From Chlorella sorokiniana (taxonomy: Eukaryota; Chlorophyta; Trebouxiophyceae; Chlorellales; Chlorellaceae): DNA of 64,000 bases. The DNA lies in assembly GCA_025917655.1 (NCBI GenBank), contig CP084617.1:558001-622000 (forward strand), in the 5' to 3' direction. How positions within the stretch are numbered: the first letter of the stretch is position 1; each line of letters opens with the position of its first letter. Position numbers and translations under genes: made by a program. The notes under the pieces were generated by a model. The model was not told the origin of the DNA. It made no database searches and saw only the letters and a list, made by a program, of their open reading frames with translations. Shown one piece after another: positions 10,071-64,000 of this stretch.

Positions 10071-13000
10071 ATGCCTTTCAATCCAGACTGTCGCCATCAA
10101 CATTTTGGAAGGTAGCCATGGGCTCGCAGCGACTGTGAGCCTGCCGTCGCTGTCGCCTCCCCCGCAGGGGCCGCCGCGCCGCCGCTGCCACGACGCTGGC
10201 GCAGCAGCGAGAGATGGAGGCCCCGGCGGTGGGCCCGCTCAGCAGCAGCGACGAGTGGTTCTTCACGGAGACGGGGCAGCGCACCTGGTGAGGGCTGCTT
10301 GGGTGCAGGGCGTGCGCCAGGCGGCCAGCGCGGCGTTGGCCCGCCTGCGAGGGTCGCTTTCGCGTTCCGCTGTGTTCAACCCCCTGGTCTTGATTGTCGA
10401 ATGCTTCCCGGCACGCAGGGTGGATGCCATGGAGCTGTCCACCCTGACCCCGAGCTGCCGTCGCTGCTGGCGGAGATGGGGGTGAGGTACGACCCGGAGC
10501 GCCTGGCGGCCGCGCTTTCCAGCCGCCCCACGGAGCTGGCGGCGCGGTCGCTGCGCGTGGCGGCCAGCCTGGGCGGCTTCATCACCAAAGTGTTGGCGGA
10601 CCTGGCCTCGGGCAGCCTGGAGGCCAACGCGCCGCAGCGCGCCGGCCAGCTGCGCGCCGTGCTCAGCGGGCTGGGGCCCAGCTTTGTCAAGACGGGGCAG
10701 GCGCTGAGCGGTGAGCCCCCGCCGGCAGCAGCCTCTGTGCTGGCTGCACATCTCACCCTGTGCCCTGCAGTGTGTGCGTTTTGCACCCCGCCGCGCCACG
10801 TCTGCCTCCCAACGCCGCCCAGCGCTCAGTGGCCTGCCTGCCTTGAACCTTGAACCCACCCGCCCGAGCAGCCCGTCCCGACCTGCTGCCCAAGCCCTAC
10901 CTGGACGCGCTGTCAGAGCTGCAAGACCGCCTGCCCTCCTTCCCCAGCAGCATCGCATTCGAGGTGCGTGCGGTGGTGGTGGTGATGTGTATGGAGGGGT
11001 GTGCAAGGGGGAGGGCGGTCCCTCTAGTGATGCGCAGTAGCCCCAGCCCAAGCAGCGCGGCTTGCTGCGCCGCTGCTGGTTGCTGCCCCGCGGCCCAGCC
11101 TGCATGCTCTGCTGCTGCCACTCTCCTGCTGCGTCCTGTGACACTCCCGTGACTCTCCTGCACACCCGTTGCTGTGCCGGCCTGCCTCAAAACGCGACCG
11201 CAGGTCATCCAAGAAGAGCTGGGGCGGCCGGTGAACGAGGTGTTCAGCGAGATCACCGCGGAACCTGTTGCGGCGGCCTCCCTGGGGCAGGTGCCGCGCT
11301 GCTGCTTGCGGGGAGGGTTTTGTGTGGAGGGGAGGCCGCGGTACATGGGAGCAGCAGCACCGCCCCTCACGCCGCGCCTCTCAAGGCAGGGGAGGTGCCG
11401 CTGGGACAGTGGGAAGCTTGCAGGGGGCCATGCTGCAGGGGAGCGCGGACAGGGCACTGCCATCTGCACCTCCCAGACGTGCTGGGCTCTGGCAGCTTCA
11501 CGTACTCGTCTCCCTCCACTGCGCCCCCCTCCCCCTCCCGCCCCCAGGTGTACAAGGCGCGGCTGCGCTCCACGGGGGAGGAGGTAGCGGTGAAGGTGCA
11601 GCGCCCGGCATCGGGGAGAACATCGCCATAGATATGGTGCTGCTGCGCCGCCTGGTGTCGGTGGTGGACAAGAACATCCCGCAGGTGTGGGTGGGAAGCA
11701 TGCTGTGCTGTGCATGCTGCGCTGTGCAGGCAAAGCATGCCAGCCTGGGGATCGGGGCCCGATGCCAGCGGCCCGCTGGCGGTGGTACCGTGCATGCTGT
11801 CATCTCCTCCCCCTTCCGCCCCTTCCCTCCCTCTGCCCGGGCCTATCCCCACACACACCCACTGACACACGCTCGCACACCAACCGCCGCCCTGCCTGGT
11901 CTTTCCACCTACCCCTCCCACTCCTGCACCCGCCCGCCGCAGGTGTCCCAGCCACTGGTGCCGCTGGTGGACGAGTTCGCTGCCCGCCTGTTTGGGGAGC
12001 TGGACTACGTGCAGGAGGGGCGCAACGCCGAGAAGTTTGCTGAGCTGTACAGGTGGGGGCTTCATGGCAAGCAACGGTGCATGGGGGCGTGTGCTGTTGT
12101 TTTGTTTATGGGAGGGTCAAGCTCTGTGTGCATGGAGATTCCTGGGGCGGGGCTGTTGAGGCAAGGACGAAAGTGTGCTGCGCAAAACGCACGGCTGACC
12201 GCCCGTGATGCCAAGCGCTATTGATTGGGTAATTCTGAGCCTCCAGCCTGGCAGTCCCCCTGGCGGCAGCAGCCTGCAAGACTGCCCTGGTATCCTGCTG
12301 TCGGTCGGCAGGAGGGCGCGCTCCATGCACACCTGCTCGTCAGGCGGCCCGCCTTGCGTGTGTGTCGAGAGCCTGTGTGGCAACCGCCGTGATTGTTCCG
12401 CTGTGCACCGACCCCCATGGTGCCGCCCTGCGTGCGCGCCCTGCCGCAGCCACGTGCCCCGCGTACGCGTGCCGGGGATCAAGTGGGAGGCCACCAGCCG
12501 CCGCGTGCTGACCATGGAGTGGATCGACGGCGTGAAGCTGACGAACGAGCAGGGTGAGAGCTTGATGGGGGCCATGGCTTGAACGAACAAGCAGCGCTCC
12601 TACGGCAGGCGGGGACCCAGCGCCGTGCAGCAGACCCTTGCTGCCGTCGCCCCAGCCTCGGCCCTCCAGTGCAGCACAGGGGGCGGCGCCGCACGATGCG
12701 CCACCTGGCGCCCACGGCACGCCTGCTGCCCTCTCAGTCCGTCCCTCCTCCAGATACGCACACACGCGCGCCCCCACCCACCCACCCCCACCCCACCCCC
12801 ACCCCCACAGCCATGGCTTCCCTGGGGCTTGACATTGTCGACTTTGTGACTGTTGGCATCGAGTGCACGCTGCGCCAGCTGCTGGAGGCGGGCTTCTTCC
12901 ACGCAGGTGCGCTGTGTTTTTGCGGGGTTCGTGCTGGCTGCTGCTGGCGCAGATGCTCTTCGATCGTGTGGCGGCTGTGCGCGCTGATGTGGCATGCTGC

Positions 13001-52235: not shown

Positions 52236-53583
52236 TCACGCCTCCTCGACCGCAGCAGCGGCGCTGCGGCCAGCCGGCACCTCGGCCACCGCCGCGGCGA
52301 CGATGGGCGCCTGCGCCGCCGTGGCAGCCCGCTCGTGTTGCACCGCGGCCGCCGCAGCGCGTGGCAGCAGCGATGGCGGCGGGGCGCGCGCCGCGGCGGC
52401 CTGCGCGGCCTGGGCTGCAGCTGCGGCCGCCGCCGCGTCTTCTTGCGAGAGCAGCGACCTCCGCTGCGCAATGGCCGCATCAAACTTGCCCTGCATCACG
52501 CTGAGAATGACGGTCCACCCGAAGGAGACGGCAGCGACGTATGGGATGCGCAGGTGTTTGGGCACAAAGGCAAAGTTGACAAACTGCAGGGGGAGGGGGC
52601 CGAGGGTGCGCTTTCAGAGAGGCATGCCATCGGCCGCCGCCGCCGCTGGCAAGGCTGGGTTGCTCCCGACACAGGAGACACGCTCCCGGCATGCAGCGCA
52701 TGGCAAGCCGGCCCAGGGGCCAGCACCAATCGAGGCACGGATGCGCAGCACCAGCATGGTGGTGGCAGATGCACACATTCTGCATCAGCTGGCCGCGCTC
52801 CGGCCGGCCCCCGGCGCCTGGCCGCCATCCGCGCACCTGGGCCGGCACCCACACCATCCACAGCGCCTTGACGCTGTCCCAGATCTCGGCGCGGTACTTC
52901 TCTGCGGCCGCCGACAGCGGCTGGCCCGACACCGCGGCCTTGATGGCGAAGAAGGAGGGGAAGTAGAGGAAGGGGTGGTGGATGCCCTGGTCGATGAAGG
53001 TCTTGATGGGGGCGGTGGCGCGGTGGCCAAAGGCGCGGGTGAGGGGGCCGCACCACTGCGTGAACTTGACGTTGTACAGCCAGTACTGGAAGCCGCCCAG
53101 GTAGGCGAAACCGAAGGCGCAGAAGGCGGCGTGGCGGGTGAGGTCAAAGTCCTCGCGGCCCTCCACCACCTGGGGGTGGGGTCGGGGCGGGAGCAAGGGT
53201 GTGGGCGAGCACAGGCGTGGATGGGTCAGTGGGGACGGTGCACATGGCTGCCGGTGGGGCGACAGCACGGGAAGACCGGGTGCAGCTGCCAACAGCGGCT
53301 GGGGAGGCCCAGCCCCACGCAGGGCGGGCTGGTCCCAGGCGGCAAGAACAGCTGCTTGGCGGCCACGGTGGCGGCGTCAGAAACCCCCGTCTGACCACGG
53401 TGCGTGCGGCGGCGGCGCCCCCGCACCCACCTTCTGCGCGAAGATGTCGGCTGCACTGGTTTTCAGACCTGTGGTGACCATGCCTGTGGTCAGCGGGTGC
53501 GCCTGAGCCGTGCGGTTGTACCAGGCAGCAGCGCTGGCGAAGGGGGCCAGCAGCGTGCGGCCCAGCTGCGCCAGCTGCGCCAT
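52236..53583 (-). CDS. Mpv17/PMP22-family membrane protein
   Basis: Four-span protein of the Mpv17/PMP22 family found in peroxisomal, mitochondrial or plastid membranes. Three exons (53583-53431, 53169-52837, 52583-52236) join in exact phase to 277 residues. Family features: N-terminal WYNRTAQAHPLTTGMVTTGL with SAADIFAQK, then DLTRHAAFCAFGFAYLGGF and the signature WLYNVKF, PIKTFIDQGIHHPFLYFP, and the C-terminal block IWDSVKALWMVWVPAQFVNF followed by AFVPKHLRIPYVAAVSFGW. The usual final aromatic strand ends at WTVILSVMQGK, after which an unusual Ala-rich, probably helical tail of about 90 residues is appended (AAAAAAAAQAAQAAAARAPP). No plastid leader is evident. Confidence 0.93.
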
Positions 53584-54757
53584 GGCGAGCGGTCAGCTGG
53601 CGCGGCGGCGGTCGACGGGCCGGGGGCTGGGGTAGTCCGCTGCGCCCGGCGGGCTGCTGCGGGTGGTGCGGGGCTGCGCCGGCTGGAGGGAGGGCAGGGC
53701 GGAGTGGCAGCACCTGCAAGCGAGCCCAAGGTGCGGCCGGCGAGCCCGGTGAGACGCGCAACCCCGGGCGGATCAGCAGGCAGGGGCAGCTGGACGGTGG
53801 AGCATCCCCAGTGAAGAACCTTTCCTAGAGGAAATACTGATTGATTTTAAAGTCAGTTCACACCAGGAAGGGCACATACCTAGAGCCGCACGCAGCAGCG
53901 ACAGACAGGGGCGTGGGATGAGCGGCAGGTAGGCAGCGGCGGCGGCAAGCGTGCACACGCGATAAGCAGCAGTCCCTTCCGCAGCGCGGTAAACACCTCA
54001 ATACAGCGGAAATGAGAAAGGCGACGTTTGCAAGGATAGCGGGCGAAACTCTTGGTAGCCGATTGTTGTAGGGCTGGTGCAGACGTGCAAGCGCCGCCCG
54101 GCGTTCAAGTACATGACAGATTGGTAAACGCGTCCTGAAAGCGACAGTTTTTCTGCCGGCGGCGCGGGCCGTGACAGTTGCACGCTTGCAGTGGTGCAAG
54201 AGCATGGATCGAACCAACAACTCCTAAATTTAAGTCACAAGCGGCGCCGCTTGCCTGGAGGAACCGCGCCCGCCGCTGCTTCAACAAAGCTTGAACAGGG
54301 TGGCCACTAATGTCCTTGGAGAACGTGCAAAGACACAGGACCAGGATGCCTTCAAGCCATCAAAGATACTCATCACAGTGTTGACAGCAGCGAAGGAAGC
54401 ATTCCACGCTCAGCACGCAGGTCGTTCCAGCACTAAACTAGCGGGCTAAGGGTCATAATATCTTGCCATACCTCACATAATCCATTAAAGGTGAAGGAAG
54501 GTTGCAATTGTGGGCCTATGAAGAGTACCGCGCCCCGCGAGCTCCCGTGTTTCACCTCCTCGCGCCGCCTGTAGCTGCGTGCATCGACCAGGCGGCTACC
54601 AAGCGGGTGCAAGGCGGGGGCGCCTTGCTCGCTGCCGTGCACCCCTCAGCGCCGCAGAGTGCTGCGGCACAGGCGTCCTGGAGCCTGTGCGGGCTCGTAC
54701 TACCGGCAGCCCTGCCCATCTTATCAGTACACTTCATCCTCAAACTCCTGGTACCAA
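53584..54757. other. Divergent intergenic region, Mpv17 and receptor-kinase genes
   Basis: About 1.2 kb with the promoters of both genes. The middle (53800-54500) is AT-richer. No gene, repeat or RNA was recognised. Upstream exons of the gene at 54758 cannot be excluded: its frame stays open back to about 54570. Confidence 0.5.
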
Positions 54758-57700
54758 ATGGACGGAAAGGATGGCACGGACAGCAAGGGCGACGACACTG
54801 CGGACAAGAGCCCAGATGCGCGCTCGGCCGACGATTGCAGCAGCGACGTGCAGGCACCCCACGTGGACTCCCTCCCAACCCTGCACACCCACCCTGGCTG
54901 TGCAGCCCAGCCCATGGCCGCCAGCACCGCCAGCAACGGCAAGGCAGAGCCAGGCGCCGCTGCTCAGCCGCAGACGCTCAAGGCGCGCGCGCAGCGGCTG
55001 GGCCGCTCGGCGGGTCGCATTTGGAGCGAGCTGCCCACGGCGTGCAAGGCGACGCTCATCGTGGCAGGTGGGCCCCCGCAGAAGCACTGGCGCTGCGTGC
55101 CAACCCGCTGCAGCTCACCAGCGCCGACGGGCAGAGACGGCGGAGGGCTTCACCTCCCGCGGGCCCCTTTCCACACCCCCGTCTCGCCACAACCAGCGCC
55201 CCCCCCCCGCTCTTTCCCCCTGCAGTGATCAACTTTGTCTTGTCCGTGACCTATGCCATCGGAGCGGTAGCCCTCACCACAGCTGATGAGGAGCTTCACA
55301 TCACGCTTATCATCCTGGTGGGGCGCCGCCGCATCGCAGCGCACAATCACTCCGCCATCTGTTACCCCCGCCCTGCGCCGACGCGCGTGCGGGCGGGCCC
55401 TCCCACCCAAGCACACACACACCCAGCACCCCCTTGCCCTCCACGCAACTTCTTGCGGCGACCCAAAGCACACCACCACCAACACAAACACGTTCCTTCT
55501 GCGGCCGCAGATCTCCGCGGTGTTTGTCGTGTTCTCGGTGGCCGATGCCATCATCTACGAGAACACGCTGGAGCTGGCCACCAGCGTGGTGATCGGTGCG
55601 CGGGCAGGGCGGCGCGTTCCAGCAAGCTACCGCAGCCAGCGAGTTTTGCAGGCACTGCACAGCCGTGGGTGCTGTGCAACGGGCCAGCCGCCTCCGCTTG
55701 CATGCCCGCAGCCTCTGTGCCCGTCTGCCGCCTGCTGCCTGCTGCCTGCTGTGCCAAGGTCTGGGCAGCTGCTTCAGAGGGCAGTGACGCGGGAAGCTGG
55801 GCCGTTGCTCACTTGCAGGTGGCGGCACGGCCCAGCAGCCGCCCACCGGCGCTCTGAGCCCCACCCCCTGCCGCGACCCTGCCGTGCAGACACGCTGGTG
55901 CTGGCGCGCATCATCTTCTTCGCTTTTGAGGGCTCCTCCCACGCTGCCTTCAAGATCGCCTGGTGCACCATGATGCTCGTTGTGCAGACCATCTACATGG
56001 TGAGGAGCTGTGCGGGACGCGGCCGCAGTGCTGTGCGTGTGGGTTGAGGCGGATGAGGGGGATGAGCCGCGAGCGTGTTGGTGCTTGTGGGGCGGCGGGT
56101 GGGGTGAGGGAGGCGGGGAGGGGGCTGGGGGGAGGGGGTATCTCGGCCAGGGGAGTGGGCTGCTGCAGCTGATAATCATGACGATAACGCACCCAGCGAT
56201 GTGATGCACAGTACTCATTCATTTCAGGTTTTCAGGCAGCGGGGTAAGCGTAGCGCAGACAGTTTTTTCCCTGCCATCCTGCTGCCATCCCATTCAACTT
56301 TGTTCCTCCCTTCCGCCAGGTGGTGGCTTTGCTTGCGTACCGCGAGTTTGGGTGGCGGCTGTACAGCAAGCTCGGGGTGGACTTCCGCGAGAAGGGCGCC
56401 GCTGACAAGTGCGCTGATGCTGCTGCTGCCGTGCGGCTGCCAGTGGCGGGGACAGCCTGGGAGCCTGCCTACCCCGTCTGTGCTGGCCTGCCGTTGCTCC
56501 GTGTTGCCGTTGCAGTAGGCCGCAAGCTGTCACCGCGGTTGGCGCCTGCATTTAGCGGCCCCTACCCCTGGCCACCCTCACCACGCCTTGTACACACACA
56601 CATGCGGCCCCGCGCGCGCGACCCCCCCCGATCCTCTGCAGGATGCGCATGGCCATCATGCGCAACTCATACGCCACCCTGCTCAAAGTCACGGGCATGC
56701 TGCTGGTGGGTGGGGCTGCCTCCTCGCCGCTCCTTGCCCGCAGCCGCTGGCAGGGCTGCCCTGCGCACGTGGGCGGCTGGGCTCCGGCGGCTTGCAGCTC
56801 GCGTGCAGCAGGCGGCTTCCCTCGTCGCCCGCCCCGCGCACCACACGTGCGGGGGCCCAGCCGCTGCGTGTCCGCCACGCTGTGCACGCTGTGCAGGTCG
56901 TGCTGTGCGCGCTGGGCATCGACGTGTCGGTGGAGAAGCGCGGCGGCGACGTGCTGGTGCAGCTGATGGTTGTCAGCCTGGTGGGGCTGGCACTGGGCGG
57001 CGCCGCCATCGCGCTCGCCGTGGTGCTTGTGCTGGTGCGGCGCGAACGGCCCGCCCCACCCCCGCTGCTGCTGGCCTTCCACATCCTGATGCCGCTGTCC
57101 GTGGGCCAGAGCGTCGCCACCATCGCCATGTACAACGTGGAGTGAGCGCCGCCGCCGGGGCCGCTGCGCGGGCGGTGGTGCCGCCGCCGCCAGCGGCGCT
57201 CTCGCCTCCGCTCTGTTCCCTTGGCTGGCTGCTGTGTGGAGGCATGCCCGTCGAGAAATTCCACCCCTTGCGCATGCAGGGCCAACGACGCCGCCAACGC
57301 CTCCATCTCTCTGCACGTCGCTGCCGTCACTTACTTCGTGTTTGGCATAGCGTGAGTGGGAGCAGGGCATGAACCGTCGGCCGCTCTGAGTCTTGACCGC
57401 AGTGTTTGCTGCGCCTCCTGCGCCAGGAAAATGATCCGCACTGTTGCAATGCAACATGCCAACAAGCGCCGCCTCCCTGCTGCTGCCCGCCGCGCAGTGT
57501 GTGGGTCAGCACACAGCTCCTGTACCGCAAGCAGGAGCGGGACAGGAAGAACGGCGCCGCAAGCGTCACGCTCAGCGCCGGTGGCCAGTCCAGCGTCGTG
57601 GCGGCAGGTGCCTCGCTGATGCTGCCGGCGTCGCTGCTGTCATGCAACATGCCTCGCCGTCGCACCGCCCACAGATTCGGCGCCGCAGGCCGCCGTGCAT

Positions 57701-60700
57701 CCAGCCCGGGCGCCGCTGTGTTTGGCCCTGCCTTGCAGGGGGACCCGCTGCTGGCGCCGATGCAGGCGGGTGCTTGGATCGGCAAGCCCACACCCGCAAG
57801 CCCCCGCAAAGTGCGCTTCTTCCAGCTGTCGTACGACGGCTCCACGCTGCGCTGGGGCTGGAACAAGTGAGCCCCCTTGCTTTTGTATAATAATCTTGGT
57901 ATGGGTGGAGTGGGGTGGAGTGGGCTGAGGGGGTGGGGCGATTGATGGCAAAGCTGCCAGTTGCAGGCCGAGCTGCCAGCCGAGCTGAGCGTGGCTGCGC
58001 TTGCTTGCCGTGCTGGGGCGCGGTGCAGCCCGGCCGGTCCAGGCTGGTGCAGGCATGACGCTGTGCCGCCTCGCCTCGTACCGCCTTGTACCGCAGATTC
58101 GTGCGGCTGTACTACATAGAGGACCTCACCTGCGACGACCTGCACCTCTCCATCACGCTGGCCTTCCCCTTTGATGCGGAGCTGATGCTCAAGTTCAAGG
58201 GTGCGCCGCGCGTGCACTGCCTGCATGGCATACCTGCCGCCTGTACCGCTACCCTGCTGCATTCTACCCTGCAGGCGCGGGCAGCACAGGGGCTGGCACT
58301 GCCTGCGCGCTGGGGCAGAGGGGGGGCTGGCGTTGCAGGGCAGGTGTAGGGCCGCCCAGGCTGCTCGCTCAACCGCCCTGCACCACCCGCACACGCTTGC
58401 GCTCCACCGCATGCAACTCGCACGCCCTGTGGTGCTGCAGATCCCGCGACGTACCACGCCTGGCGCCGCGGCCTGGCTCACCTGCTGCTCATGCTGATGG
58501 CCCCGGACGCGCGCGCGCCTCACGAGGCGCTGGAGGACGGCGGCGGCGGCAGCGGTCGGCGCCCGGCGGGCGCGTGCTGCTGGGCCAGACGACGAGCCGC
58601 CAGCTGCTGGGCGTGCCCAGCCGCGCCACGATGGCCCTCGTCACCGGCAGCGCCGCCTCCGCGCGGCGCCCTCTGCGCCGGGCGACGCGCCGCTCAGCGG
58701 CGGCCGGGGCAGCCTGCGGGGCAAGCGCATGCTGGAGCAGCTGGGTGTTCGGGTGCAGGAGATGGGGCGCCTCTTCCGCTCCGCATCGCTCGGCAAGCCC
58801 CGCTCCAGTGGCCCCTCGTGGAGCCAGGGGGCGGAAGCGACGGGCAGCGAGGCGGGCGCAGCCGCCTGGGACGAGGAGGCCGGCAGCAGCAGCGGCGGCC
58901 GACGCACCGCCAGCGGCTCTCTGCGCACGCCGCGGCGCTCGGCGGCGGCGCCCCGAGCAGCGAGGCGGCCCGGCTGCGGCGGGAGGCCGACCGCAGCGAG
59001 CAGCTGGAGAAGCGGCGGCGCATGGCGGCCTACCTGCGCTCGCTGGCGGCGGCGGCGCAGCCCCGGCGGCGGAGCGCCGCCCCGGCGGCCGCCCGCCGCC
59101 CATGGCGGCAGCGGTGATGGCCGCGGCGCCAGGCAAAGGTGCCATCCCCGTCGCCGCGAGGCTGAGCACGGTGGAGAGCGGCGACGTGCGCGTTTCTGCG
59201 GGCGGGGTGTTGACCGCGGATGTCGGCGTGCAGACAGACGAGTCGGAGCTGCTGATGGCGGCGGGGCTGGGCACTCCGCGCTCGCTGCGCAAGCGAGGCA
59301 GCGGCCTCAGCGGGCTGGCGGACGCGCCGCCGTCTGCCCGCCGCCTGCAGCGGCTGCGGGAGGAGCAGGTGGAGGCAGCGGTGCCGCCCGTGCCGCCCGC
59401 CTTGGATGCCTGCGACGCCGGCGTTGCGGCGCAGTACGCGGCGGCAATGGCGGTGGCGGCAGGCGCGGCAGGGCTGGGGGCAGCGGGGCGGGAGCCTAGC
59501 CCGGCCGCCGCCTCCGATAGACAGCAGCAGCAGCAGGATCAGCAGCAGCAGGCATCGGCCGATGCGGATGCCGACTTAGCGGCGCAGTATGCGGCGGCGA
59601 TGGCAGCAAGCGGCGGCAGCGGGGTTATGCAGCCACCGACGCCGGCACAGCAGCAGCAGCAGCAGCAGGCACCTGAGGGGGATGCCGACGTAGCTGCCCA
59701 ATACATGGCGGCAATGGCGGCGGCGGCAGCTGGCGGCGGCGGCGCCGCCGCGCCCGCAGCTGCCTCCGCCGGCTTCGCGGCGGCTTCCGCGGACGGCACC
59801 GCCGAGGCTGACCTGGCAGCGCAGTACCTTGCGGCCCTGCAGGCGGCAGCCGCGGGCGGCGGCGCGCCGGCTGCGGCACCGTTTCCACCAGCGTCGTCGC
59901 TGGCAGCTCCTGTGCGGGGGCGGGCTGGAGGGGTGGGCCCAGGGCGGGGCCACCCTGCGGGGCCTGCCCCCCGCCGCTCGCTCTCCATCACCTCCCCGGC
60001 ACCGCCGCCTCCCCGCTGGAGCAGCTGGCGTGGCAGCAGCAGGCGGCGGCGTCGGCCCGGCTGGCCGCCTCGCTCACACCGGGCTCCTCTGCCCCTTCCA
60101 TGGGCCTGGGCCCAGCAGGTGGGCTGCCAGCAAGCGCGCTTGAAACAGCGACGGAGCGGGTTGAAAGCGGATGGTTGGAGACTGGGCGTGTGCCCCGCCC
60201 GTCTGCTGCCCGTTCCGGCTGCACTGTCTGCGTGCATCCGCGCAGGAGGGCTAGTCCGGGGCATGCTCTCCTTCTCAACCCCCCTCCACCCGCTCTCGTA
60301 TGCCTTGCCGCAGGCGGCGGCGGCCTCTGGCAGCTGGCGGCGGCGGTGGACGTGATTGACTACGAGGAGCTTTCCTTTGGCAAGCTGCTGGGGGCGGGTG
60401 AGCTTTGCGACTGCCGTGCCGATGCCGCCACGCCGCTGCCCTAACAGACACAAGGGCGACGGGGCGGGGGCCTGCGGTCTGTTTTCGGCGCGGCGAGGCA
60501 TCGCACCGAGTGGCTTTTCCACTCCGCCCCCACCCACCCCACCTGCTGTTGTTGCCGCACGGTCCACCCCACCTTCTGTGTTGATCGCCGCCGCTCCACA
60601 CCACTCCTGCTTCGTTACTCAAAAACTCGCCGACCGTGCAGGCGCGGAGGGCGCGGTGTATGCGGCCTGGTTCCTGGAGTCGCCCGTGGCGGTGAAGAAG

Positions 60701-62963
60701 TTTGAGCGCGCCGCCGACTCGCTGCACGAGGTGGGGATGTACCTGCAGCTGGGCTCGCACGACAACGTGGTGGCGCTCAGGTGGGTGTGGCTAGTGTTGG
60801 GTGGGTGGCGGGCGAAGTGGCAAGGGGCGGTCGCGCTGCTGGCAGTCGTCGTCATGCTGACGCGTGTGTGTGGCAGTGCGTGTATGGATGCGGGTGGCTG
60901 GGGGCTGCGCGCAAACAGTGAACAGGAACACATGCAGAAGGGGTGGCGGCGATACGAGACAGTGGGCCCTGCCCTTGCCCTCCTGCCCCCTGCGAGCAGG
61001 GGCCTGTGCCAGCACGAGGGCAGCATGTACCTGGTACTGGAGTACTGTCCTAGGTAAGGATAGCTTCTTGGCAACTTCACCATTGTTCTGCCGTCCCATT
61101 GCCTCCTTCTACCACCATGCCTGCCTGCCTGAGCCGGCCGCCCCCTTGCCTGCCTGCAAACGCCTCCAGCGCTGCCGCCCAGTGCTCTTCCCTAGCCAAT
61201 TGAGCCTGTCCCCCAGCTCCTCTTTCATTGCACACGGTCATGAACCCAACTTTGTCCCTGCACTGAAAACACGCACACCGTAGACCGACACCTCCCAACC
61301 AAACCGTCTGCTTCCTCCTGCCCCCTGCGCCGCGCCAGGGGCACGCTGGATGTGATGCTGCACCACTCGGCGCGCGGCCGCTGGGACCCAGCCAAGCTGC
61401 TGCCGCTGGTCCGCTCCATTGCCCGCGGCATGCACTACTTGCACTCCCGCTCCATCCTGCACCGAGACCTGAAGCCAGCGTGAGGGCTGGCAGCGGCATC
61501 CCCCCCCGCCTCCTGCCCACCCTGCTGCCCGCTGCCGTGCACTGCGCGCGCTTCTCCCGTGCTCCTGCTGCAGCCCGCCTGTCTTTGCGCGTTGCAACTG
61601 CCTCGCGACGGCTTGACGCCTCCTTGTTGGCACGCTGTGGGCTGCCTGAGCTCAGGTTGACTCTCGAGTTGTTGCGCTCGCCGGCTGCTGCAGCAACATC
61701 TTTGTGGGCCACGGCCAGATGATGAAGATAGGAGACTTTGGCATGGCCCGCATAGCTTGTGAGTGGCTGCCCTGCATCTTCTGTGGGCGCATAACCAGCT
61801 GTTGCTGAGTGCCGCAACCTGGCTACAGCCAAGTCAATGAGACACCAGCTGAATGGCCCTCTCTGTGAACCCCCTGCAGCCACGCCCGTGGACGGCCCCC
61901 CACACTGCGCCGCCTCACCCCGGTACCGTCGGTACCGTCCAGTACTGCGCCCGGAGCTGGTCAACGAAGACCTGCGACCACGGGGTGAGCTGCGGCTGCG
62001 CTGCTGCGGGGCAAGGTCTGGAGCCCTGGTGGGCAGGCTGGGGCCCCTTGGCTCTGGCTGGACACCTTTGCAGCTCGGGCCCACAGACTCAGCTCCTCGG
62101 CCGGGAGGCCCACCTGCCAGCCCCAGCCCGCCGCCTGCTGCTAAACGCATGGCCTGGCGTCCCCCTGCTGCTGCGACTACTTTTGCGGCTCCTGTGCATG
62201 CGACCCGCGGCAGCCGTTACCCCTCAGTCAATCGGTGCGTGTGTGCTGCCCAAGGCAGCCGTTAATTTTCAAGCGGTGCATGCTGCCTGCCTGTTCAGGT
62301 GTGGAGGATATGGAGTGGGCCCTGAAGCTGGATGTGTGGAGCTTTGGGGTCACCCTGTGGGAGATCCTGGAACGGCGGCGCCCGTTCGAGGGCCTCTCGC
62401 AGAATGCGGTGCAGGTGCATAGCGTGGGTGTGTAGAGGTCTGAATGAGAGGTGTCGTGACACGCTTTCGCCTTCGTGCCGCGAGACCCTTTAGGTTGCCG
62501 CACAGCTACTGACATGACCTTCTGTGCCCTGAGTTGTTGAATTTTCATTCTGCCCCCCCCCACACCACCCACACCATCACCCACCCACCCACCCACAGGC
62601 TCAGTGGATGGCTGACCCGTATGCAGCGCGCCTGCCCCCCGTGCGCCTGCCGGATGGCGGCAGCCTCACCGTCAAGCGCATCTATCGCGGCCTCTCGGGT
62701 GCACAAGCTGTGCTGCCGGCTGCTGTGCATGCCGAGTGAGCGCCACTTTCTGCTTCACGCCCAGCCTGGACGTCAGTTACCGCCTCATCAACTCGCTCAC
62801 GTGTGTCCTGGCGGCCTGGCTGCTGCCCCCGGCCGCAGACTTGATTGAGGACTGCACCCGGCTGGACCCCTACGCCCGTCCCTCCTCTCGCGACATCCTG
62901 CTGCGCCTCAAGTCCCTAGCAGCCTTTGCAGAGCGCAAAGACACTGCCCAGGAGGCCCTGTGA
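54758..62963 (+). CDS. Multi-span membrane protein fused to PH-like domain and TKL kinase
   Basis: Candidate receptor kinase of about 1,340 residues in some 21 exons. About 100 polar N-terminal residues precede seven likely spans: ATLIVAVINFVLSVTYAIGA; ISAVFVVFSVADAIIY; TLVLARIIFFAFE; TMMLVVQTIYMVVALLAY; LLKVTGMLLVVLCALGI; VVSLVGLALGGAAIALAVVL; ITYFVFGIAVWVS-like VAAVTYFVFGIAVWV. A PH-like domain follows (57800-58480: KVRFFQLSYDGSTLRWGW … KFKDPATYHAWRRGLAHLL). A long exon (58441-60118) encodes a Ser/Arg/Ala-rich linker with AAQY repeats. The kinase has every catalytic motif: glycine loop GAGAEGAVYAAW, VAVKKF, HEVGMYLQLGSHDNVV, HRDLKPANIF, GDFGMARI, GTVQYCAPEL, DVWSFGVTLWEI, and ends KDTAQEAL at 62963. 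Slips in G/C runs at 61894, 61950 and in the linker. One gene is favoured because the linker exon joins both halves. Confidence 0.72.
59410..59860 (+). repeat. Four imperfect protein repeats (DAxxAAQYxAAM) in the kinase linker
   Basis: The linker encodes DAGVAAQYAAAMAVAAG, DADLAAQYAAAMAAS, DADVAAQYMAAMAAAA and EADLAAQYLAALQAAAA, spaced about 38-50 residues apart and separated by Gln, Gly or Pro-rich stretches. Each looks like a short amphipathic helix with an acidic cap and an invariant AAQY core. Confidence 0.85.
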
Positions 62964-63635
62964 GGGCACCCTTGGTCAACAGCCCGCCGCTGTCGGGCCC
63001 TCTGTCAACACGCATGCCGCCCCTTGAACCAAACTGTTTCCCGAGATGGTTTTGCCGTTTTGTTTCCTGTTGCAGCCTCTTGCCTCAGTCCTCCCGCCGG
63101 TTGCACCGACAGCCTGATAGTTCTGTAACCTTTCTTGCTGTGTGACAGCCGCAGGACCCCTGTGCCCTGGCTTACTGCTGGCGGTGACCCCAGGTTGCGC
63201 CGCCATCCACCCGTCAAGCAAGAGGACGCTTTGCGTCGCATCTGCGGGTTCAAGGTCTGTCTAGTCACTGATCGCAGCCTTTGTGGGCATTCATTGCCAA
63301 AGTCTGCTTCCTCCCACGAGCGCCGGAGGCCATGCATGAGCCAAGTTACGCCGAACTGCCCAAACCCGTAATCGGCATGCATGCATCTTACTGCTCCAAT
63401 GTGTAAAACAAGACAATACTCCCGGCCGCCTTACCCTCATCGGGACCTCTCTTTCTTGTTGCCTCCAGGCCTCTCCTGCAGCACGCATTTGGGGTGCAAG
63501 CTTATGATCTGAGCGTTAAATTTTGTTCGAAGGCGCTACAAGTTCCTGTCGTGCCGCCTTTCGTTCGTTTGGCCTGTTATCGACTCACGTGCAGCGTGTA
63601 GGAGGGACCGTATCGTTTCCACAGGCTGAACACAA
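62964..63635. other. Spacer between receptor kinase and EPSP synthase
   Basis: About 670 bases between tandem genes. It contains TGTAA at 63124 and AT-richer sequence near 63390-63410 and 63510-63540. No gene recognised. Confidence 0.55.
63124..63128 (+). terminator. TGTAA poly(A) signal of the receptor-kinase gene
   Basis: TGTAA about 160 bases past the stop codon of the kinase. Confidence 0.55.
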
Positions 63636-64000
63636 TGGCGGCAGTGGCTCAGGCACAGCAGCTCATGCGGGCTGCGCAGGCCAGCGCCAGCATGCGGACG
63701 GCTCAGCCCCATCTGCTTGCCGCTCCCCTGCGCACCCCGGCAGCCTCGCAGACCGCAGCCCATGCGGCCCTGGCAGCTCGCATTGCAGCGGCAGCGGCGC
63801 AGCGGCGAGCGGGCAGCAGCCTGCGGCGGCGTGCTGCGGCGCCTGCGGCTGCGGCCCCCGCTGCCGTGGAGGAGCTCACGATCCAGCCTGTGCGTGTGAT
63901 CGAGGGCCATGTCAAGCTTCCCGGCTCCAAGTCACTTTCCAACCGAATCCTGCTGCTGGCCGCCCTGGCTGAGGGCACCACCACCGTCGAGAACATCCTG
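63636..64000 (+). CDS. aroA: 5-enolpyruvylshikimate-3-phosphate synthase, 5' part (cut by window edge)
   Basis: Plastid shikimate-pathway enzyme joining shikimate-3-phosphate and PEP. The first exon from the ATG at 63636 runs off the end. The first 85 or so residues are an Ala/Gln/Arg-rich chloroplast transit peptide with no acidic residues until EELTIQPV. The mature start is unmistakable: [20 protein letters not shown] followed by [17 protein letters not shown], with the substrate-binding Lys and Ser of the PGSKS motif, of the plant/class-I type. About 120 codons are present; the rest, including the glyphosate-contact loop, lies outside. Confidence 0.93.

Follow-up and report, generated by a model that had tools for sequence, protein, structure and literature searches.

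Fusions of G protein-coupled receptors with tyrosine kinase-like kinases (GPCR-TKL bigrams and GPCR-TKL/K) unite, in the available parts of the papers describing them, a multi-span membrane module with a TKL-type kinase at the C-terminus of the same protein; GPCR-TKLs were known from oomycetes and amoebozoans, the authors stating there that they had no evidence of them in other taxa, and GPCR-TKL/K were later reported in acanthoecid choanoflagellates (PMC5784254, PMC6033456, PMC12716839). The available text of a 2025 paper from the same set places membrane-kinase fusions in oomycetes, amoebozoans and choanoflagellates, with sponges added for the tyrosine-kinase type, and favors repeated origins. 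In the portion available of the Phytophthora infestans kinome paper (PMC3019232), every kinase with predicted spans, numbering one to nine, is a TKL, and multi-span TKL kinases are therefore already a known kind; the order membrane module, PH-like domain, TKL kinase is unmentioned in that portion. The gene considered here lies at 54758–62963 in a 64,000-nucleotide stretch of Chlorella sorokiniana DNA (the window), and its product is most likely a membrane-anchored Ser/Thr kinase of mitogen-activated protein kinase kinase kinase (MAP3K)-like type, to be placed among the multi-span TKL kinases of oomycetes, amoebae and choanoflagellates.

The window gene shares with the bigrams a TKL kinase at the C-terminal end; it differs in having eight predicted spans with both ends inside and a PH-like domain that separates the membrane part from the kinase, and no GPCR signature was detected in it. 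According to the accessible text on the oomycete GPCR-TKLs, a DEP domain follows the kinase in half of them, unlike in the window gene. In agreement with the preliminary description of this DNA, which knew of no green-algal protein with such a domain order, no green-algal example was recognized among the papers listed in searches for green-algal or GPCR-kinase cases, one listing covering 12 of 1,262 papers and subscription journals being mostly outside the literature searched.

Domain order in the window gene and its paralog

The favored reading, to which a probability of roughly 60% is assigned, is that of a polytopic membrane kinase encoded by a single gene and composed of eight spans, a PH-like domain, a linker and a TKL Ser/Thr kinase on the cytosolic face. 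The gene is genuine, and its exons form a single unit (Table 1). Its coding sum is 4147 nucleotides, or about 1,380 codons with the frame steps ignored; the introns measure 121–320 bases, 18 of the 19 were counted as GT-AG, and the remaining one, with the exon end at 61984, also opens with GT. Exons 1–10 join in phase and give the N-terminal tail, the membrane module and most of the PH-like domain; the junctions of the kinase exons are in phase as well, except inside 61880–61984.

The earlier proposal that one gene combines a multi-span membrane part with a PH-like domain and a TKL kinase finds its main support in a second locus of the same genome (38.8 Mb in 15 contigs, labelled C plus a number). 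With 35 chlorophyll a/b-binding protein matches (E ≤ 1e-5), the genome is that of a photosynthetic member of the green lineage. On contig C9, at about 1880241–1887184, a related gene carries the membrane module, PH-like domain, linker and TKL kinase on one strand in the order of the window gene, and the window kinase has its best match in the genome, apart from itself, in the kinase of this gene. Identity between the two is 26% in the membrane module, 33% in the PH-like domain and 56% in the kinase; because the order is kept despite this divergence, the comparison argues for the three parts being encoded together as one fused gene. In this paralog, the one relative looked at, the two halves are linked and not carried as separate genes. 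Elsewhere in the genome, one membrane-module exon has a weak match at G000:C8:1594962-1595096 (E 0.09, 38%). Alignment searches confirmed none of the 52 membrane or 203 kinase pattern matches in viral contigs, and none of the 109 membrane pattern matches in prokaryote contigs.

Table 1. Features of the gene in the window
Feature	Position	Strand	Description
Whole gene model	54758..62963	+	20 exons, 19 introns; exon reading and phases
Membrane module, exons 1-9	55055..57507	+	Eight spans predicted, both termini inside; DUF7789 match below cut-off on spans 1-4
PH-like domain (putative)	57769..58530	+	Exons 57498-57866, 58097-58200 and start of 58441-60118; right edge approximate
Linker exon	58441..60118	+	77.9% GC, Ala/Gly/Gln/Ser-rich, frame steps; third-position GC, codon path
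Four AAQY repeats	59414..59842	+	In linker
TKL-like Ser/Thr kinase domain and C-terminus	60314..62963	+	9 exons; PF00069, PDB ranking
Kinase exon with APE region	61880..61984	+	GTVQYCA and PELV in different frames
Candidate polyadenylation signal TGTAA	63124..63128	+	161 bases past stop codon

Kinase, membrane module and PH-like domain

The kinase domain matches PF00069 at 4.2e-41. Among the best 60 of 2661 matched PDB sequences, the top one is an EGFR chain in which the kinase occurs twice, and MAP3K12 (100.5 bits) leads the single-domain matches, followed by MAP3K9 and the tyrosine kinase ITK at about 92. The glycine loop, VAVK, HRDLKPAN and DFG read cleanly, and HRDLKPAN indicates a Ser/Thr kinase; by its sequence, the domain is likely TKL and not a tyrosine kinase. 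The APE region is split across frames. On the single gene with its membrane, PH-like and TKL-kinase parts, and on these four motifs, the preliminary description is supported; it had considered all catalytic motifs intact, which does not hold for the frame-slipped exon 61880–61984, and the kinase is not wholly intact as assembled.

The topology of both membrane modules, taken without the far N-terminal tail, was predicted with a home-made scan of hydrophobicity and positive charge. Eight spans with the N-terminus inside scored 23.5 in the window and 16.3 in C9, against 20.3 and 15.1 for seven spans with the N-terminus inside and 19.0 and 13.4 for seven with the N-terminus outside; seven spans with the N-terminus inside would place the C-terminal kinase outside. 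By this prediction, the membrane part, previously described as about seven hydrophobic spans, fits, in both paralogs, an eight-span module with its two termini inside better than a seven-span GPCR, if only by a modest margin. In a long basic loop, AYREFGWRLYS of the window gene corresponds to AYRSFGWRMYS of C9. The sole Pfam match of the window module at E ≤ 10 is the DUF7789 family (PF25044; E 2.3e-4), which covers the first half of the predicted spans; its 21.6 bits fall short of the curated cut-off of 25, and a reversed-sequence control gave no match. The C9 module, in contrast, has no DUF7789 match and finds DUF2070 only (E 1.2) at the same threshold, where neither module matches a GPCR family. 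DUF7789 had no matches in the same genome with exons read singly, and no paper naming it was found in the literature searched; a two-module profile of window and C9 retrieved no PDB chain at E ≤ 10. As a lead only, a consensus of fungal UPF0658, presumably Golgi membrane proteins, aligns to both modules; it was set up with the window sequence already in view, may be biased by it, and matched no Pfam family and no contig.

The PH-like domain, as proposed earlier, is plausible and lies below threshold. Its strand pattern and its closing W-x-x-G-L-x-x-L-L helix, the latter present in both paralogs, resemble those of PLC delta-1, a member of the PLC and ELMO type covered by PH_12; unlike these, an 85-residue window piece reached only 12.1 bits over its first 30 residues (E 0.26, cut-off 27), and neither the 70-residue and 83-residue window pieces nor the C9 piece matched PH_12, whose cut-off a PLC delta-1 PH domain passes. 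A two-row profile retrieved 14 PDB sequences at E ≤ 10, namely 11 UVR8 (best 0.12), one CFAP52 and two ELMO1; the PH-like sequence of the window gene alone matched UVR8 at E 3e-4 over 22 residues, with no single stretch better than E about 10 among the three alignments displayed, and the UVR8 matches are read as a short shared motif. The ELMO1 chains (E 0.5 and 0.61), from what is taken here to be a PH protein, matched over the C-terminal half and weakly support the PH-like call. A basic run precedes the first conserved strand, a place where such a run would suit phosphoinositides, and phosphoinositide binding is possible.

Frame steps and competing readings

The linker exon is richer in guanine plus cytosine (GC) than the conserved exons (77.9% vs 65.6%). 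Third-position GC and the codon-usage path give its frame as 0-2-1-0-2, four steps in the same direction; by the codon path, it ends in frame 1 through two opposite-direction steps across a short stretch, making six in total. The path placed no step in three control exons, which had also trained the model, and all 15 scored introns were called intron by a model that the introns had trained, the four beside slipped exons being left out. The slips, which the preliminary description had flagged as its weak point, are borne out as several steps, yet the linker codes throughout by scoring, with six of six segments coding (the last by only 3.4). A scan for hidden introns preferred an intron at three of the five slips (58554, 58679 and 59988) and a slip at 58927 and 59100; the three candidate introns collide with an intron already in the model or with the limits of the exon itself, for which reason the segment scores alone were used, and hidden introns may be a residual possibility. 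In exon 61880–61984, two opposite-direction steps were seen by eye and four same-direction steps by the codon path, and four scanned stretches of C9, with exon borders partly unsettled, hold 15 steps, 10 in the missing-base direction and 5 opposite. The simplest account is that bases are missing from very GC-rich assembly sequence. The AAQY repeats are absent from all three forward frames of the C9 gene, so that the docking role suggested for them is unlikely to be a conserved one.

Several points weigh against the favored reading: the linker and exon 61880–61984 leave a single frame as assembled, the topology comes from a home-made scan that separates the models by a modest margin, the PH-like domain lies below every curated cut-off with just one tried piece reaching PH_12, and the C9 kinase has DLG at the position of the window DFG. 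The frame steps within the linker, together with a low-complexity composition that could hide an unrecognized end and start, would suit two adjoining genes, the first coding for a membrane-PH protein that stops within the linker and the second for a TKL kinase of its own. This arrangement is unlikely in view of the order and strand shared with the diverged C9 paralog, and of the first kinase exon, which begins at a splice acceptor and keeps the phase of the final linker segment. In addition, the two copies of TGTAA, taken here to be the polyadenylation signal of green algae, that lie within 53900–64000 (63124 and 63402) both come past the stop codon and not between the two halves; the C9 stretch scanned holds no TGTAA at all, which makes the scan uninformative there. 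Alternatively, the steps could be true mutations in a decaying gene from which a full-length kinase is not made, as the six linker steps, the at least two needed in exon 61880–61984 and the likewise stepped C9 gene would allow; nevertheless, the 2364 nucleotides of other exons each fit one frame with junctions in phase, the steps are concentrated in the GC-richest exon, where every segment still scores as coding, and decay is considered quite improbable.

A multi-span module ahead of a TKL kinase is also the order of the oomycete bigrams, and seven spans with an outside N-terminus score close behind in both paralogs, so that a seven-span receptor, perhaps still G-protein-coupled, has to be considered. 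It is held to be unlikely, as eight spans with the N-terminus inside score highest in both, GPCR families are unmatched at E ≤ 10, and no G-alpha was found above cut-off in an exon-by-exon search of the genome, in agreement with the available part of a 2013 review, in which the sequenced green algal genomes are without heterotrimeric G protein elements. The best G-alpha-like exon, G000:C12:969332-969448, reached 26.7 of the 48.8 bits needed (E 4.4e-5) and may, as a guess, belong to an ARF-type GTPase. The earlier interpretation is thus retained for the one-gene fusion of a membrane kinase, and not for its likeness to GPCR-bigrams or for conserved docking by AAQY.

The gene is flanked on the minus strand by an Mpv17/PMP22-like gene at 52480–53592 (PF04117, 24.3 bits vs cut-off 27, E 3.2e-5) and on the plus strand by the start of an EPSP synthase gene at 63602–64000 (PF00275, E 1.6e-9), truncated by the window end; an open reading frame at 11235–12224, on the plus strand, has a short ABC1 atypical-kinase match barely above cut-off (PF03109, E 3.9e-5).

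A possible sensor kinase in a green alga

With both ends of the eight spans cytosolic, the PH-like domain, the long flexible linker and the TKL kinase would be held at the cytosolic face of the membrane. The membrane module may respond to a ligand, a lipid or the membrane state, while the PH-like domain might dock on a phosphoinositide or on the membrane module; clustering would then let the kinase domains activate one another, and the activated kinase could feed a MAP kinase cascade in the manner of Raf/MLK-type kinases. More tentatively, and with some doubt, green algae may possess a polytopic receptor-kinase class of their own, in which a PH-like phosphoinositide reader would join a MAP3K-type kinase, in one fusion, to a non-GPCR eight-span sensor that is kin to an ancient uncharacterized endomembrane family; a single molecule would then read the lipid state and a second signal.

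In summary, two related genes in one green alga seem to share an uncommon receptor-like design, unlike that of a classical GPCR. If the reading is true, such a built-in sensor kinase would link a membrane cue directly with a kinase cascade where G protein elements are reported absent, and the green lineage would be added to those with membrane-kinase fusions, which would fit the view of repeated origins in the accessible text of the 2025 paper.
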